DNA of 11,642 nt from Desulfobulbaceae bacterium. GTDB taxonomy: Bacteria > Desulfobacterota > Desulfobulbia > Desulfobulbales > Desulfocapsaceae. The stretch is from positions 1 to 11,642 of the forward strand of contig JAUVON010000050.1 of the NCBI GenBank assembly GCA_030599175.1. Direction: 5' to 3'. Below, in pieces: positions 1,529-5,409 of this stretch (within the stretch, counting starts at the first letter, position 1; each line of letters begins with the position of its first letter). The position numbers were made by a program, and so were the translations under genes. The notes under the pieces are model-generated. The model ran no database searches. It was not told the DNA's origin and worked only from the letters and a program-made list of their open reading frames with translations.

Positions 1529-1566
1529 AAGCATGAAGGTCAGGGTTCCTTGCGTTTTTATTTTTG
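1529..1566 (+). terminator. weak candidate terminator after the epimerase gene
   Basis: AAGG (1536-1539) can pair with CCTT (1548-1551), and GCA/TGC can extend the stem across a bulge. The stem is followed by TTTTTATTTTT (1555-1565), which overlaps the end of convergent leuA. The stem is short and imperfect, so this is tentative. Confidence 0.3.
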
Positions 1567-3240
1567 TGCTCTGTCCACACTGCTCAGCACCGCCTTAACC
1601 GAAGCAATTATAATATCTGTATCAACCGCAACTCCCCATTTTACAGCCCCGTCCGGATATTCAATTTCAATATAGGCTGCAGCACTAGCACTTGAGCCGC
1701 CGTCCAGGGCATGCTCATGGTAGTTGCGCAGACGAAAGTTCCCCGTAACGTCAGTCTTCAATGCTGTACAGAATGCATCAAGAGGCCCATTCCCTGTAGC
1801 GGCAATGGTCTTTTCTTCACCATTAACCAACAGGGTAGCCTCCACATCGGCAAAGGATTCATTTTCATCCCCGGCAATATGTCTTTTATTCACATGAAAA
1901 GTTTTGAGTTCATATGGAGCAACCGGCGTCAGGTATTCATCACAGAACGTCTGATAAATTTCATCATGGGCCAGTTCCCTGCCCTCTTTGTCCGTTACAG
2001 CCTGGATAATGCGGCCGAATTCGGGATGCATCGATTTGGGCATCTTAAATCCATATTCCTTACCCATAATATAAGCCACTCCGCCCTTACCCGACTGACT
2101 GTTTATACGAATTACAGACTCATATGTTCTGCCCACATCCGACGGGTCTATCGGCAGGTAGGGAACCTCCCATAGATTACCCTTCCCTGCATCGTACTGA
2201 TCCATTCCTTTATTGATGGCGTCCTGGTGTGAACCGGAAAAAGCAGTATATACCAACTCTCCCGCGTAGGGCAGTCGCGGGTGTACGGTTAAACGGGTTA
2301 CACGCTCATAGGTATTAATCAATCGGTTTATATTATCAAACTCAAGCCCTGGATCCACTCCTTGAGTAAACATGTTCAGCGCAAGAGTTATGATATCCAC
2401 ATTACCGGTACGTTCACCATTACCAAAAAGAGTTCCCTCTACTCGATCCCCTCCCGCCATAAGGGCAAGCTCAGTTGCTGCCACGGCACATCCTCTGTCA
2501 TTATGGGTATGCAAACTAATTATGACAGAGTCCCGGTCAGAGACATTGTTGCAAAACCACTCTATCTGGTCAGCATAAATATTGGGGCTGGACATCTCGA
2601 CTGTTGCAGGCAGGTTAATAATCATCCTGTTTTCAGGGGTCGGCTGCCAGATATCTTTTACCGCCTCACATATTTCCAGAGCAAAGTCCAGCTCGGTTCC
2701 CGTAAAGCTCTCCGGGGAATACTCATATTTAAATTTTGTTTCCGGAGCCCTGGCCACCTCTTCTTTTATGAGTCTGGCACCAGAGACCGCAAGATCTATG
2801 ATCTCTTTTTGACTCATCTGGAACACCGTTCGGCGCTGCAGAGTCGAGGTGGAATTATAAAGATGCATAATTACTTCCTTTGCACCTGCCACCGACTCAA
2901 AGGTTTTTTGAATCAGGTTCTCACGGGCGGGAGTCAGTACCTGGATCAGCACATCTTCCGGGATCAGGTCTTTTTCAATAAGGGTTCTGGTAAACTCATA
3001 CTCAACCTCGGATGCTGACGGGAACCCTACTTCTATTTCTTTAAAGCCGACCCCCAGCAGCAACCGGTACATCTCCAGTTTCTTTTCATGACTCATCGGC
3101 TGTATAAGCGCCTGGTTGCCATCACGAAGATCAACGCTGCACCATGTTGGCGCCTTATCGATTACTTTTGAAGGCCAGGTGCGTTCCGGCAGATCAACAG
3201 GCGGGTATGAACGATATTTTTTTACTAATTCCGGCTTCAT
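1558..3240 (-). CDS. leuA: 2-isopropylmalate synthase, long (type 2) form
   Basis: The enzyme condenses acetyl-CoA with 2-ketoisovalerate to give 2-isopropylmalate, the committed step of leucine synthesis. It has 560 residues, the size of the long form known from actinobacteria and yeast rather than the E. coli form of about 520. The catalytic TIM barrel opens with the metal-binding DLRDGNQAL (Asp40 in RDGNQ), and the divalent-metal HTHNDRG is at residues 244-250. GNGERTGNVD follows. The C-terminal third, after about residue 430, matches the leucine-sensing LeuA dimer/regulatory domain and includes GNGPLDAF and the Gly/Ser/Ala-rich DGGSSASAAAYIE. AGGAG five to six bases upstream supports the start. 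The gene is transcribed divergently from ilvBN and preceded by a leucine leader peptide and terminator, so it is probably controlled both by attenuation and by leucine feedback on the enzyme. Confidence 0.95.
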   Translation of the reverse strand: MKPELVKKYRSYPPVDLPERTWPSKVIDKAPTWCSVDLRDGNQALIQPMSHEKKLEMYRLLLGVGFKEIEVGFPSASEVEYEFTRTLIEKDLIPEDVLIQVLTPARENLIQKTFESVAGAKEVIMHLYNSTSTLQRRTVFQMSQKEIIDLAVSGARLIKEEVARAPETKFKYEYSPESFTGTELDFALEICEAVKDIWQPTPENRMIINLPATVEMSSPNIYADQIEWFCNNVSDRDSVIISLHTHNDRGCAVAATELALMAGGDRVEGTLFGNGERTGNVDIITLALNMFTQGVDPGLEFDNINRLINTYERVTRLTVHPRLPYAGELVYTAFSGSHQDAINKGMDQYDAGKGNLWEVPYLPIDPSDVGRTYESVIRINSQSGKGGVAYIMGKEYGFKMPKSMHPEFGRIIQAVTDKEGRELAHDEIYQTFCDEYLTPVAPYELKTFHVNKRHIAGDENESFADVEATLLVNGEEKTIAATGNGPLDAFCTALKTDVTGNFRLRNYHEHALDGGSSASAAAYIEIEYPDGAVKWGVAVDTDIIIASVKAVLSSVDRAQK

Positions 3241-3274
3241 TGTATCTCCTGAAGGTTTTTACTGCATTAAAAAC

Positions 3275-3314
3275 AAAAAAAGGGGGCCGCAGTTTTTTCA
3301 ACCGCGGCCCCCTT
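3275..3314 (-). terminator. attenuator terminator in the leuA leader
   Basis: Read on the minus strand, an 11-bp perfect stem (AAGGGGGCCGC with GCGGCCCCCTT; plus-strand arms 3280-3290 and 3304-3314) encloses a 13-base loop and is followed directly by seven T residues, then GTTTTT. This is a textbook intrinsic terminator. It lies between the leader peptide and the leuA start, about 35 bases before the ATG, so it would stop transcripts before leuA unless disrupted. Its 5' arm overlaps the proposed antiterminator partner at 3300-3309. Confidence 0.9.
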
Positions 3315-3367
3315 GAGTTCTGTATAGTCTAAAATATTAAACCATACCTCCCCCGTCAGCCACGGCC
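3300..3367 (-). promoter_or_regulatory. candidate leucine antiterminator
   Basis: In the minus-strand RNA, GGCCGUGGCU (plus-strand 3358-3367) can form ten consecutive pairs, four of them G-U, with GGCCGCGGUU (3300-3309), the 5' arm of the terminator. The upstream strand lies within leader codons Lys-Ala-Val-Ala, two codons after the last leucine codon. A ribosome stalled on the leucine codons could leave it free to pair, while a ribosome moving on would cover it. I found this pairing by hand, and no folding energies were computed. Confidence 0.6.
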
Positions 3368-3414
3368 TTAATAAGTAGTAGACCCAGTAGTAGAGAAAGG
3401 TGAGTATTTTTCAT
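3337..3414 (-). CDS. leucine leader peptide of leuA (LeuL-like)
   Basis: This 25-codon reading frame encodes MKNTHLSLLLGLLLIKAV followed by ADGGGMV and a TAA stop. Seven residues are leucine: position 6, then 8-10 and 12-14. Four of the seven codons are CTA, the same codon that is stacked in enterobacterial leuL. It ends 22 bases before the attenuator stem and lies on the leuA-sense strand. A weak AAGAG sits about ten bases before the ATG. The layout of leucine codons, overlapping antiterminator and intrinsic terminator is that of ribosome-mediated attenuation: scarce charged leucyl-tRNA stalls the ribosome and lets leuA be transcribed. The peptide itself need have no other function. Homology with enterobacterial LeuL is not claimed; such leaders arise independently. 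Confidence 0.85.
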   Translation of the reverse strand: MKNTHLSLLLGLLLIKAVADGGGMV

Positions 3415-3451
3415 TACAATGTTACTCTTTTCTAAGAAATTATGCCAAATA

Positions 3452-3474
3452 GTGTCACAGAAAATTGTTGACAC
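3452..3474. promoter_or_regulatory. perfect inverted repeat between leuA and ilvB, possible operator
   Basis: GTGTCA (3452-3457) and TGACAC (3469-3474) form a perfect 6-bp inverted repeat with an 11-base spacer. It lies at or just downstream of the predicted leuA start of transcription and upstream of the ilvB promoter. It could bind a dimeric regulator acting on either gene. No regulator is identified, and a 6-bp arm can arise by chance. Confidence 0.35.
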
Positions 3475-3481
3475 CTCTCCC

Positions 3482-3511
3482 AATGTAAACACCGGTTGAT
3501 ACCCTTGTCAA
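3482..3511 (-). promoter_or_regulatory. candidate sigma70 promoter for the leuA leader
   Basis: On the minus strand a perfect TTGACA (plus-strand 3506-3511) is followed after 18 bases by TACATT (3482-3487), four of six matches to the -10 consensus. Transcription would begin near 3475, about 60 bases before the leader peptide start. An alternative -10, CATAAT at 3439-3444, has no good -35. Confidence 0.5.
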
Positions 3512-3594
3512 GCGAGTTTTAGTCGAGATTCCTTTCAATTTCAATCCCTGGAGATGAAAATGGTCTAATCTCTTGTTTCAGCCCGCCTTGCAGG

Positions 3595-3623
3595 TTGACA
3601 TATAGAGTTTTCACATATATAGT
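3595..3623 (+). promoter_or_regulatory. strong sigma70 promoter for ilvB
   Basis: TTGACA (3595-3600) and TATAGT (3618-3623) are separated by exactly 17 bases, giving a start near 3630 and an untranslated leader of about 80 bases. Unlike leuA, this leader shows no leucine/isoleucine/valine-rich peptide and no GC-rich hairpin with a T tract, so attenuation is not indicated for ilvB. The other parts of the 3241-3708 gap are covered by the leuA leader features. Confidence 0.75.
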
Positions 3624-3708
3624 TTTCAAATTCAACAAAATTTGTGACCTTTCTTGATGCTCTTCACTTATTTTGGAATTTTCAAATTTTTCATGAGGAA
3701 ATAGATTA

Positions 3709-5409
3709 ATGGGGAAAATTACCGGCTCCCAGGCAATAGTCAGATGCCTAGAAGAAGAAGGTGTAAAAATAATATTTGGGTATCCGGGCGGTGCCGTCCT
3801 TGACCTTTTCGATGCAATAGATCAATCCGATTTTGTCAATGTACTTGTTCGCCACGAACAGGGTGCAGTCCATGCGGCCGACGGGCTTGCCAGGGTTACC
3901 GGAGAAGTCGGTGTGGCAATCCTTACATCGGGGCCCGGCGCAACCAATGGTGTCACCGGTATTGCAACAGCATATATGGATTCAATCCCCCTTGTTGTCC
4001 TGACCGGGCAGGTACCCAGACCTCTTATTGGAAACGACGCCTTTCAGGAGGTGGATATAGTAGGTATCACCAGGCCCTGTACAAAACATAATTACCTGGT
4101 AAGTGAACTCGACGATCTGGTTCCGGTAATAAGAGAGGCTTTTCATATTGCCCGTTCCGGGCGTCCGGGCCCGGTTCTGGTCGATCTCCCTAAAGATCTG
4201 GTCGCCAGCATGCTCACCTATCCTGAAAAGAAGCCAATTGAGATGGTGAGCTATCAGCCCACATATCAACCCCACTCCCGCCAGATTGCCAAGGCATGCA
4301 AGCTGATAATGAAGGCAAAAAGACCTGTGCTCTACGTGGGCGGCGGTGTCATTTTATCCGATGCCGACAAAGAACTGACAGAACTTGCCAGAAAACTTGA
4401 TATTCCCGTGACCATGACACTAATGGGACTGGGAGCATTTCCTGGCAACCACGAATTATCCATGGGAATGCTGGGGATGCATGGCACTTACACAGCAAAT
4501 ATGGCCGTCTCGGAATGTGATCTGCTTATCTCTGTCGGCGCACGATTCGATGATCGGGTAACCGGGAAACTTGATGATTTTGCAACCAAGGCAAAAATTA
4601 TCCACATTGACATCGACCCCACTTCCATCAGTAAAAATGTTAAGGTTGACATCCCCATCGTTGCAGATTGTAAAATCGCTCTCACTGCCATGAATAGCTG
4701 GTTCGATGCGGAATCCGACTTCAGTCTCAAGGAAGAAGCCGCCCGCCATGCGCCCTGGTTCAAATTAATCAGGGAATGGACTGAAAAACACCCTCTCTCC
4801 TATGAAGAAGCCGGGGATATTATCAAACCCCAGTATGTCATAGAACAATTTGACAGACTCACCGGCGGGAATGCCATAATAACAACGGAGGTCGGACAGA
4901 ACCAAATGTGGGCAGCTCAATTCTACAAGTTTAACCAGCCGCGCCATTTTGTAACCTCCGGAGGGTTGGGAACCATGGGCTTTGGACTCCCCGCTGCTAT
5001 TGGTGCGCAAATGGCCTTCCCCGATAAGACGGTCATCGATATTGCAGGCGACGGCTCAATCCAGATGAATATTCAGGAGTTGGCAACGGCAAAGCAATAC
5101 AACTGTCCCGTGAAGATAGCTATCTTAAATAACAGTTACCTGGGCATGGTGCGGCAGTGGCAGGAACTCTTTTATGATAAAAGATATGCATCCACCACCA
5201 TGGATGTCGTTCCCGACTTCGTTGATCTTGCCAAAGCCTTCGGTGCAGTCGGTCTCCGGGCAACCACTAAAGATGAGGTTATTCCGGTTATCAAGGAAGC
5301 ACTGGCAACTGATAACGTTGTAGTCATGGATTTTAAAATTGAGAAAGAGGAAGGCGTTTATCCCATGGTGCCGGCGGGCAAGGCTAACACAGAGATGCTA
5401 TTGGTTTGA
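3709..5409 (+). CDS. ilvB: acetolactate (acetohydroxyacid) synthase, catalytic subunit
   Basis: The enzyme joins pyruvate with pyruvate or 2-ketobutyrate to give acetolactate or acetohydroxybutyrate, the first common step to valine, leucine and isoleucine. At 566 residues it is full length for the family. The thiamine diphosphate N-terminal domain contains GYPGGAVLDLFDA and the catalytic glutamate Glu50 in RHEQGAVHAADG. The central FAD-type domain spans roughly residues 190-330 and includes GARFDDRVTGK. The C-terminal cofactor domain has the metal/ThDP motif GDGS at 447-450 running to NNSYLGMVRQWQ at 474-485. GAGGA at 3695-3699 precedes the ATG by nine bases. It is the first gene of ilvB-ilvN-psd, driven by the promoter at 3595. 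The regulatory subunit follows 99 bases downstream. Confidence 0.97.
   Translation: MGKITGSQAIVRCLEEEGVKIIFGYPGGAVLDLFDAIDQSDFVNVLVRHEQGAVHAADGLARVTGEVGVAILTSGPGATNGVTGIATAYMDSIPLVVLTGQVPRPLIGNDAFQEVDIVGITRPCTKHNYLVSELDDLVPVIREAFHIARSGRPGPVLVDLPKDLVASMLTYPEKKPIEMVSYQPTYQPHSRQIAKACKLIMKAKRPVLYVGGGVILSDADKELTELARKLDIPVTMTLMGLGAFPGNHELSMGMLGMHGTYTANMAVSECDLLISVGARFDDRVTGKLDDFATKAKIIHIDIDPTSISKNVKVDIPIVADCKIALTAMNSWFDAESDFSLKEEAARHAPWFKLIREWTEKHPLSYEEAGDIIKPQYVIEQFDRLTGGNAIITTEVGQNQMWAAQFYKFNQPRHFVTSGGLGTMGFGLPAAIGAQMAFPDKTVIDIAGDGSIQMNIQELATAKQYNCPVKIAILNNSYLGMVRQWQELFYDKRYASTTMDVVPDFVDLAKAFGAVGLRATTKDEVIPVIKEALATDNVVVMDFKIEKEEGVYPMVPAGKANTEMLLV

Follow-up and report, generated by a model that had tools for sequence, protein, structure and literature searches.

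Attenuators of Proteobacteria have reportedly been surveyed, by Vitreschak and colleagues in 2004. In enterobacteria, the leu attenuator (RF00512, Leu_leader) comprises a leucine-rich leader, leuL, with a run of CTA codons, a region 2 that lies within the leader open reading frame (ORF) past the leucine codons, a 2:3 antiterminator and a 3:4 terminator in front of leuA. An attenuator of the leuA operon, with complementary mutations, has also been predicted in five Shewanella species and, according to the accessible text of that report (PMC2659441), likewise consists of a leader peptide, an anti-antiterminator, an antiterminator and a terminator before leuA; a long-form leuA goes unmentioned there. 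In the actinobacterial LEU element a leucine leader ORF again precedes leuA, but the available text of PMC1262725 describes a pseudoknot and pairing of the leucine codons with the leuA Shine-Dalgarno sequence, and classical attenuation is deemed unlikely. Here we describe an element built like the enterobacterial and Shewanella ones, which lies upstream of leuA in an 11,642-nucleotide (nt) stretch of DNA (contig JAUVON010000050.1; hereafter the window) from the 2.9 Mb draft genome of a Desulfobulbaceae bacterium of the order Desulfobulbales (GCA_030599175.1). In all likelihood it controls leuA by classical ribosome-mediated transcription attenuation, with charged tRNA-Leu as the signal sensed. 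The parts, conservation, base pairs, codon bias and spacing set out below come from the sequence and its comparison with relatives. In the literature searched, subscription papers lying outside its scope, we found no description of this element in Desulfobulbales, and the main text of PMC2965389 mentions neither leuA, leucine nor Desulfo.

On the minus strand of the window, the leader ORF (MKNTHLSLLLGLLLIKAVADGGGMV) encodes 25 residues with seven leucines (CTT, CTA, CTA, CTG, CTA, CTA and CTT, that is, four CTA codons), just as a first-pass annotation of this DNA had it. The annotated antiterminator of ten pairs, GGCCGUGGCU with GGCCGCGGUU, was recovered too, four of its pairs being G-U. The terminator had been described as an 11-bp stem with a T7 tract; the tract stands, but the stem is longer, with 15 pairs including A-U ends and -30.6 kcal/mol when folded alone (coordinates in Table 1). 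Folding of positions 3240-3475 gave a z-score of -5.57, equalled by none of 200 shuffles. A short ORF with seven leucines per 12 residues arose in 19 of 5000 dinucleotide shuffles of the same positions, and the whole window holds two further short ORFs with six leucines per 12 residues, so that the evidence for the leader from one sequence is good, not overwhelming. Comparison with relatives was therefore needed, and conservation there settles the question.

Relatives were drawn from family f1 of the order Desulfobulbales, presumably the Desulfocapsaceae. LeuA matches were present in 91 of its 93 genomes and DNA upstream of a long-form leuA was examined in 82; the other 11 lacked a long-form match, held fragments alone, offered no upstream DNA or were not fetched. 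After exclusion of five loci with short upstream DNA (L058, L075, L093, L099 and L116), 77 were usable. Of these, 75 have a terminator and 72 combine a terminator with a leader of at least three leucines. Desulfopila aestuarii and Desulfosediminicola flagellatus (L008 and L012), both cultured, are among the relatives that carry the element. The proposal of a leucine attenuator before leuA in a Desulfobacterota genome had been made to depend on conservation of the leucine codons and the terminator in close relatives, and both are indeed conserved, with the parts where they had been placed. Alignment A1 comprises 74 rows, omitting L096, L113 and L121, which lack a leader or terminator, and 72 of the 74 leaders carry at least three leucines. 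Codon counts used 72 leaders (L105 and L115 dropped), the folding scan 70 (L108 and L119 dropped as well) and the duplex test 74 rows, with L121 in and L130 out; the L130 terminator was missed by the pattern and added by hand for later analyses. Leader starts were picked by a rule that favours leucine, so the TTG or GTG starts of 12 of the 74 leaders may be too early. The peptide itself varies in length and sequence, its constant features being the leucine codons, the segment that codes for region 2 and a purine-rich end. A Shine-Dalgarno-like role for this end was rejected by reasoning alone, the stop codon being too near. The two hairpins at 3475-3451 (the 5' hairpin) and 3347-3322 (in the antiterminator loop) are, by eye, not kept by relatives. 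Of 72 family leaders, 70 carry the motif TTGAC[AT] at a distance of 40-220 nt upstream from the antiterminator core, where mononucleotide shuffles would give 7.0.

Genus g16 accounts for four of the five exceptions (L121, L096, L113 and L105, the last with a disrupted leader), and the fifth, L115 of genus g4, keeps on hand reading a frame with two CTA codons. The attenuator thus appears to be decaying in g16, where L121 (genome G075) has the terminator only and L096 and L113 have neither leader nor terminator; the genomes of the latter two, G082 and G081, are incomplete (63% and 55%, respectively). A covariance model of the attenuator matched 87 of the 93 f1 genomes; this figure was not used as a count of attenuators because it includes weak terminators.

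The leucine codons of the leaders differ sharply from those of the gene that follows. CTA accounts for 177 of 454 leucine codons in f1 leaders and, in the 28 genomes with a complete locus, for 73 of 186 (39%) in leaders versus 17 of 1297 (1.3%) in leuA, an enrichment of about 30-fold in counts that take no account of shared descent. In the same genomes the combined frequency of UUA and UUG in leaders is less than half that in leuA (15/186 versus 238/1297). In ten genomes of f12, a second family of the order, the corresponding counts, read with the same reservation about descent, are 9/63 versus 2/487 for CTA and 1/63 versus 71/487 for UUA plus UUG. For E. coli, CUA has been predicted to be the best leucine control codon and UUA and UUG poor ones (PMC1183508, in its accessible text), and these leaders offer a test of that prediction beyond the enterobacteria.

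The position of the leucine codons relative to the first base of the antiterminator core is similarly constrained. In f1 they are concentrated 13-37 nt upstream of the core, with leucine at -22 in 55 and at -25 in 63 of 72 leaders, and CTA is commonest at these two positions. Of 73 leaders, 52 have their last leucine codon no nearer than -13, 16 have it at -10 and five have it closer still. Behind the core, the stop codon follows after exactly 16 nt in 67 of 74 f1 leaders and after 19 nt in all 16 scored f12 leaders, and the distance from the stop to region 3 varies between 25 and 44 nt. Codons 13-37 nt before the core would let a stalled ribosome leave the core free. We examined this geometry in 70 leaders by folding the RNA downstream of a ribosome at each codon, as the first-pass annotation had proposed, with the polymerase just past region 3, a footprint assumed to extend 12 nt downstream of the A-site and no pairs allowed to span the ribosome. 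The mean probability of the 2:3 pairing, P(2:3), was 0.52 for RNA free of ribosomes; it was 0.93-0.94 when the A-site stood at -13 to -25, and 0.35 at -10.

From these features we infer that the leader is transcribed and translated, and that stalling on it responds to leucine. RNA polymerase would start about 60 nt upstream of the leader ORF. Under leucine shortage, the ribosome would stall at the leucine codons, often the rare CUA and mostly 13-37 nt before region 2, hiding the strand that carries these codons; region 2, left free, would pair with region 3 once this is made, and the terminator would be blocked and leuA transcribed. When leucine is plentiful, the ribosome would pass region 2 to the stop codon at a fixed distance behind it; with region 2 occupied, or later folded onto the leucine-codon strand, regions 3 and 4 would pair and transcription would stop at the T tract.

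Base-pair covariation was assessed on the 74 rows. In the terminator, two-sided changes occur at 9 of 13 pairs and the observed values are unmatched by 500 shuffles on all five measures. One column of its stem holds a C.C mismatch common to genus g16 (L082, L084, L086, L088, L090, L091, L094, L102, L106, L135 and others), with 13 of the 74 rows unpaired; the 5' arm needed by the antiterminator is kept there and the 3' arm is altered. The seven-pair core of the antiterminator is paired in 498 of 518 cells (96%; 20 unpaired), and the full ten pairs in 81.8% of cells, versus 31-60% for slid partners. At column 169, a C-G to U-A replacement is seen in 18 sequences from two genera (17 genomes of g4 and G046 of g9), where a G-to-A change in region 3 is accompanied by C-to-U changes in regions 2 and 4. 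The antiterminator covariation score also exceeds that of column shuffles (6 of 500 reach it).

Several observations weigh against this reading. On the other four of five measures the ten-pair antiterminator does not stand above column shuffles, which reach the observed values in 86 (cells paired), 499 (two-sided pairs), 103 (cells two-sided) and 497 (further pair types) of 500 cases, much of the variation being tolerant of G-U. The sequences' own region-2/region-3 duplexes are a mere 0.9 kcal/mol better than swapped ones, a weak signal, and only 42 of 74 fall within the best 5% of shuffles. The zero values of P(2:3) from -7 on in the folding scan are built in, as pairing across the ribosome was forbidden. 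The window itself is not typical: its last leucine codon lies at -10, nearer than the limit set by the folding model, and its core-to-stop distance is 19 nt instead of 16, as in two close relatives. Its naked RNA already favours the 2:3 pairing (0.998), which means that shut-off in the window has to come from ribosome occupancy or from terminator kinetics, and the full transcript is always terminated at equilibrium (P 0.997), so that the model has to be a kinetic one. Finally, the actual codons give no stronger a 1:2 'pause' hairpin than synonymous ones do (mean z -0.22). At least four core nucleotides are paired upstream in 61 of 72 leaders, and RNAalifold finds no family-wide consensus 1:2 hairpin, but genus g4 yields a weak one and g16 one that is better; in the window, this hairpin does not outcompete the 2:3 pairing.

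A more specific version of attenuation combines two proposals, and we regard it, taken jointly, as rather unlikely. The ribosome at the stop codon would itself be a working part, its trailing edge abutting the loop-closing pairs of the antiterminator and blocking their nucleation, so that termination behind a ribosome that has read the full leader would need no 1:2 hairpin; in addition, the attenuator and long-form leuA would have been passed together, as a unit, between phyla. The first proposal arises because the core-to-stop distance is fixed (16 nt in f1 and in Spirochaetia, 19 nt in f12) while the spacer behind it drifts. Far less probable is that a constitutive or protein-regulated terminator trims leuA and that the leucine-rich ORF is incidental, or encodes a small membrane peptide. 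The equally dense ORFs in the shuffles described above would fit this, as would L121 with its terminator and no leader; yet the position of the leucines is largely fixed relative to region 2, which lies inside the ORF and matches region 3, CTA is enriched in the leaders, L096 and L113 have by eye lost leader and terminator together, and the peptide varies except in the constant features named above.

Control of leuA translation, or a protein-binding RNA, as in the actinobacterial LEU element, seems to us very improbable here. That leucine leader also stands before leuA, and the mutation data given in the accessible text of PMC1262725 misfit classical attenuation; the present element, however, has a conserved intrinsic terminator with strong covariation, placed well upstream of the leuA start at a variable distance (region 3 lies 91-354 nt from the end of the extracted stretches, which include about 30-40 nt of leuA). 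An Rfam match to the L20 ribosomal-protein leader (23.6 bits over 3435-3272) would suggest membership of that family, for which the chance is negligible: the gathering score is 58.7 bits, the E-value 0.52, the well-aligned part is the terminator and the downstream gene is leuA, and among matches listed at E up to 1 it appears in none of 19 relatives' stretches. The L20 identity was rejected, as the weak match rests mainly on the terminator.

The element is also present in a second family. Among 116 genomes drawn from the order, long-form LeuA is confined to f1, f12 and one genome of family f5 (G182), the rest having either a LeuA form at most about 28% identical or no match; among 198 drawn from the phylum, seven matches at E 1e-150 comprised the window's own, five from f12 and one from another family (G359). 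In f12, leader, region 2, region 3 and terminator were found in 16 of the 17 genomes, L164 and L167 with one core mismatch each, and in the last, L154, the leader is present and the terminator site is a run of N. All four parts are also found in G182. This genome (locus L165) carries a short-form leuA as well as the long-form gene, whose leader is f1-like with 16-nt stop spacing, and its long-form unit may reflect either horizontal transfer or contamination of a metagenome-assembled genome (MAG). A scan of 13 upstream regions of short-form genes from the order's other families recognised no attenuator, the best region having five leucines per 12 residues. A 46-row LeuA tree unites f1 and f12 in a supported group (100/99), each family being one group too, and places the Spirochaetia in a separate group apart from them. 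One origin before the family split is thus the simplest history, in which attenuator and long-form leuA would have been inherited together from the ancestor of the two families.

In other phyla, 41 long-form loci (L013-L053) were compared, and in eight the leucine-rich ORF was equalled by at most two of 200 shuffles: four of five Spirochaetia, one Anaerolineales, two Opitutales and one Verrucomicrobiales, the other 33 being weaker or without one. Leucine-rich short ORFs precede long-form leuA in L029 and L038 (Opitutales), L033 (Verrucomicrobiales) and L013 (an Anaerolineales MAG), with an obvious terminator, by eye, only at L013. The Spirochaetia MAGs L014, L018, L019, L020 and L023 have a leucine leader (of the MKGTAFLLNLLLTLLLSLVKEVYGTELRSR type), a complementary region and a terminator before long-form leuA. 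Like the window, L014 and L018-L020 have CTA-containing leaders, pairing of region 2 with region 3 (one mismatch in L014) and a terminator; their core-to-stop distance is 16 nt and leucine stands 16, 22, 25, 28, 34, 37 and 40 nt from the core. L023 is more diverged, with a core-to-stop distance of 15 nt and leucine positions shifted by one base. The peptide and hairpin sequences differ from those of the window, and LeuA is 56-57% identical. The matching leucine positions and 16-nt stop could reflect ancestry shared with the gene or the same ribosome physics.

The regulated gene is indeed of the long, yeast-like form, as annotated: LeuA scores 768 bits against NCBIfam TIGR00970 (leuA_yeast; cut-off 697), and the gene is 97% identical to leuA of the MAGs Desulfobulbaceae bacterium S3730MH12 and UBA2775. 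It had been called split from ilvBN; ilvB and ilvN are transcribed in the opposite direction, and ilvB is a divergent neighbour that starts 468 nt away. A promoter-like site for ilvB, TTGACA-17-TATAGT, lies at 3595-3623 on the plus strand within the intergenic region 3240-3709. The divergent layout recurs in 25 of 29 family loci (L055-L083), three of the four misses lying at contig ends, and no ilvB was found beside leuA in 11 f12 loci searched. The view that only leuA carries the element agrees with our checks, in which the covariance model found one real copy in the whole genome and no comparable leader was seen before leuB or ilvD or, by eye, ilvB; the strongest candidate before leuB, MKRGSHLLHLLPILQVEQFPT, shares bases with another reading frame and was unconvincing. 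No leuC above the family cut-off was found in this genome. The covariance model has a second match in this genome (G000, 34.8 bits) which, judged by eye, is a cold-shock gene's terminator. Eight such second matches were inspected in relatives: seven stand at the end of a reading frame or, again by eye, of a tRNA gene, that at L190 is unclear, and no leucine leader was seen at any of the eight.

Table 1. Features of the probable leuA attenuator and neighbouring genes in the window.
Feature	Position	Strand	Remarks
leuA, long-form 2-isopropylmalate synthase, 560 aa, regulated gene	1558..3240	-	TIGR00970
Intrinsic terminator	3275..3314	-	Stem 3314-3280, T7 tract 3281-3275; fold and two-sided changes in relatives
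Region 3, antiterminator 3' arm and terminator 5' arm, GGCCGCGGUU	3300..3309	-	Pairs with region 2
Leader peptide ORF, MKNTHLSLLLGLLLIKAVADGGGMV	3337..3414	-	Start ATG 3414-3412, stop TAA 3339-3337
Region 2, antiterminator 5' arm, GGCCGUGGCU, within leader ORF	3358..3367	-	Conserved 7-nt core 3365-3359
Regulatory leucine codons CTT-TCT-CTA-CTA-CTG-GGT-CTA-CTA-CTT	3373..3399	-	10-34 nt upstream of antiterminator core
Sigma-70-like promoter TTGACA-18-TACATT	3482..3511	-	Sequence pattern
ilvB, acetolactate synthase large subunit	3709..5409	+	Divergent from leuA; start 468 nt away

The first-pass annotation suggested that the element arose independently of the enterobacterial one. Such an origin of the Desulfobulbales attenuator is plausible: a search of the whole genome at E 0.001 yields no match to Leu_leader, whose gathering threshold is 50 bits, with a control that detected the family in three of 14 genomes including E. 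coli, one of them above the cut-off, and the LeuA form is not the enterobacterial one. Against this, one of 20 sources, L124, does give a sense-strand Leu_leader hit that covers the element (24.1 bits versus 50, E 0.42), a weak match compatible with a distant relation to the enterobacterial element, and Spirochaetia share the same geometry. The element is short and changes fast, so dissimilarity is no proof of a separate origin.

In its geometry, the window's leader can be set directly beside leuL of E. coli K-12 (L196), where, by hand count, the four CTA codons are found at distances of 17-26 nt upstream of the core, within the f1 range, and the stop codon follows 25 nt behind the core, versus 16 or 19 nt here. 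The leucine codons of the window are spread more widely than the single run of four in E. coli, the leader and hairpin sequences are different, LeuA is of the long form and no leuBCD follows leuA in the window. About 90 natural variants can now be compared, and the relatives without a leader, or without leader and terminator, serve as natural controls. With these differences, the element would work like the enterobacterial leu attenuator, a known mechanism, and leucine attenuation by ribosome stalling would thereby extend to most of the examined f1 members of the Desulfobulbales and to a second family.
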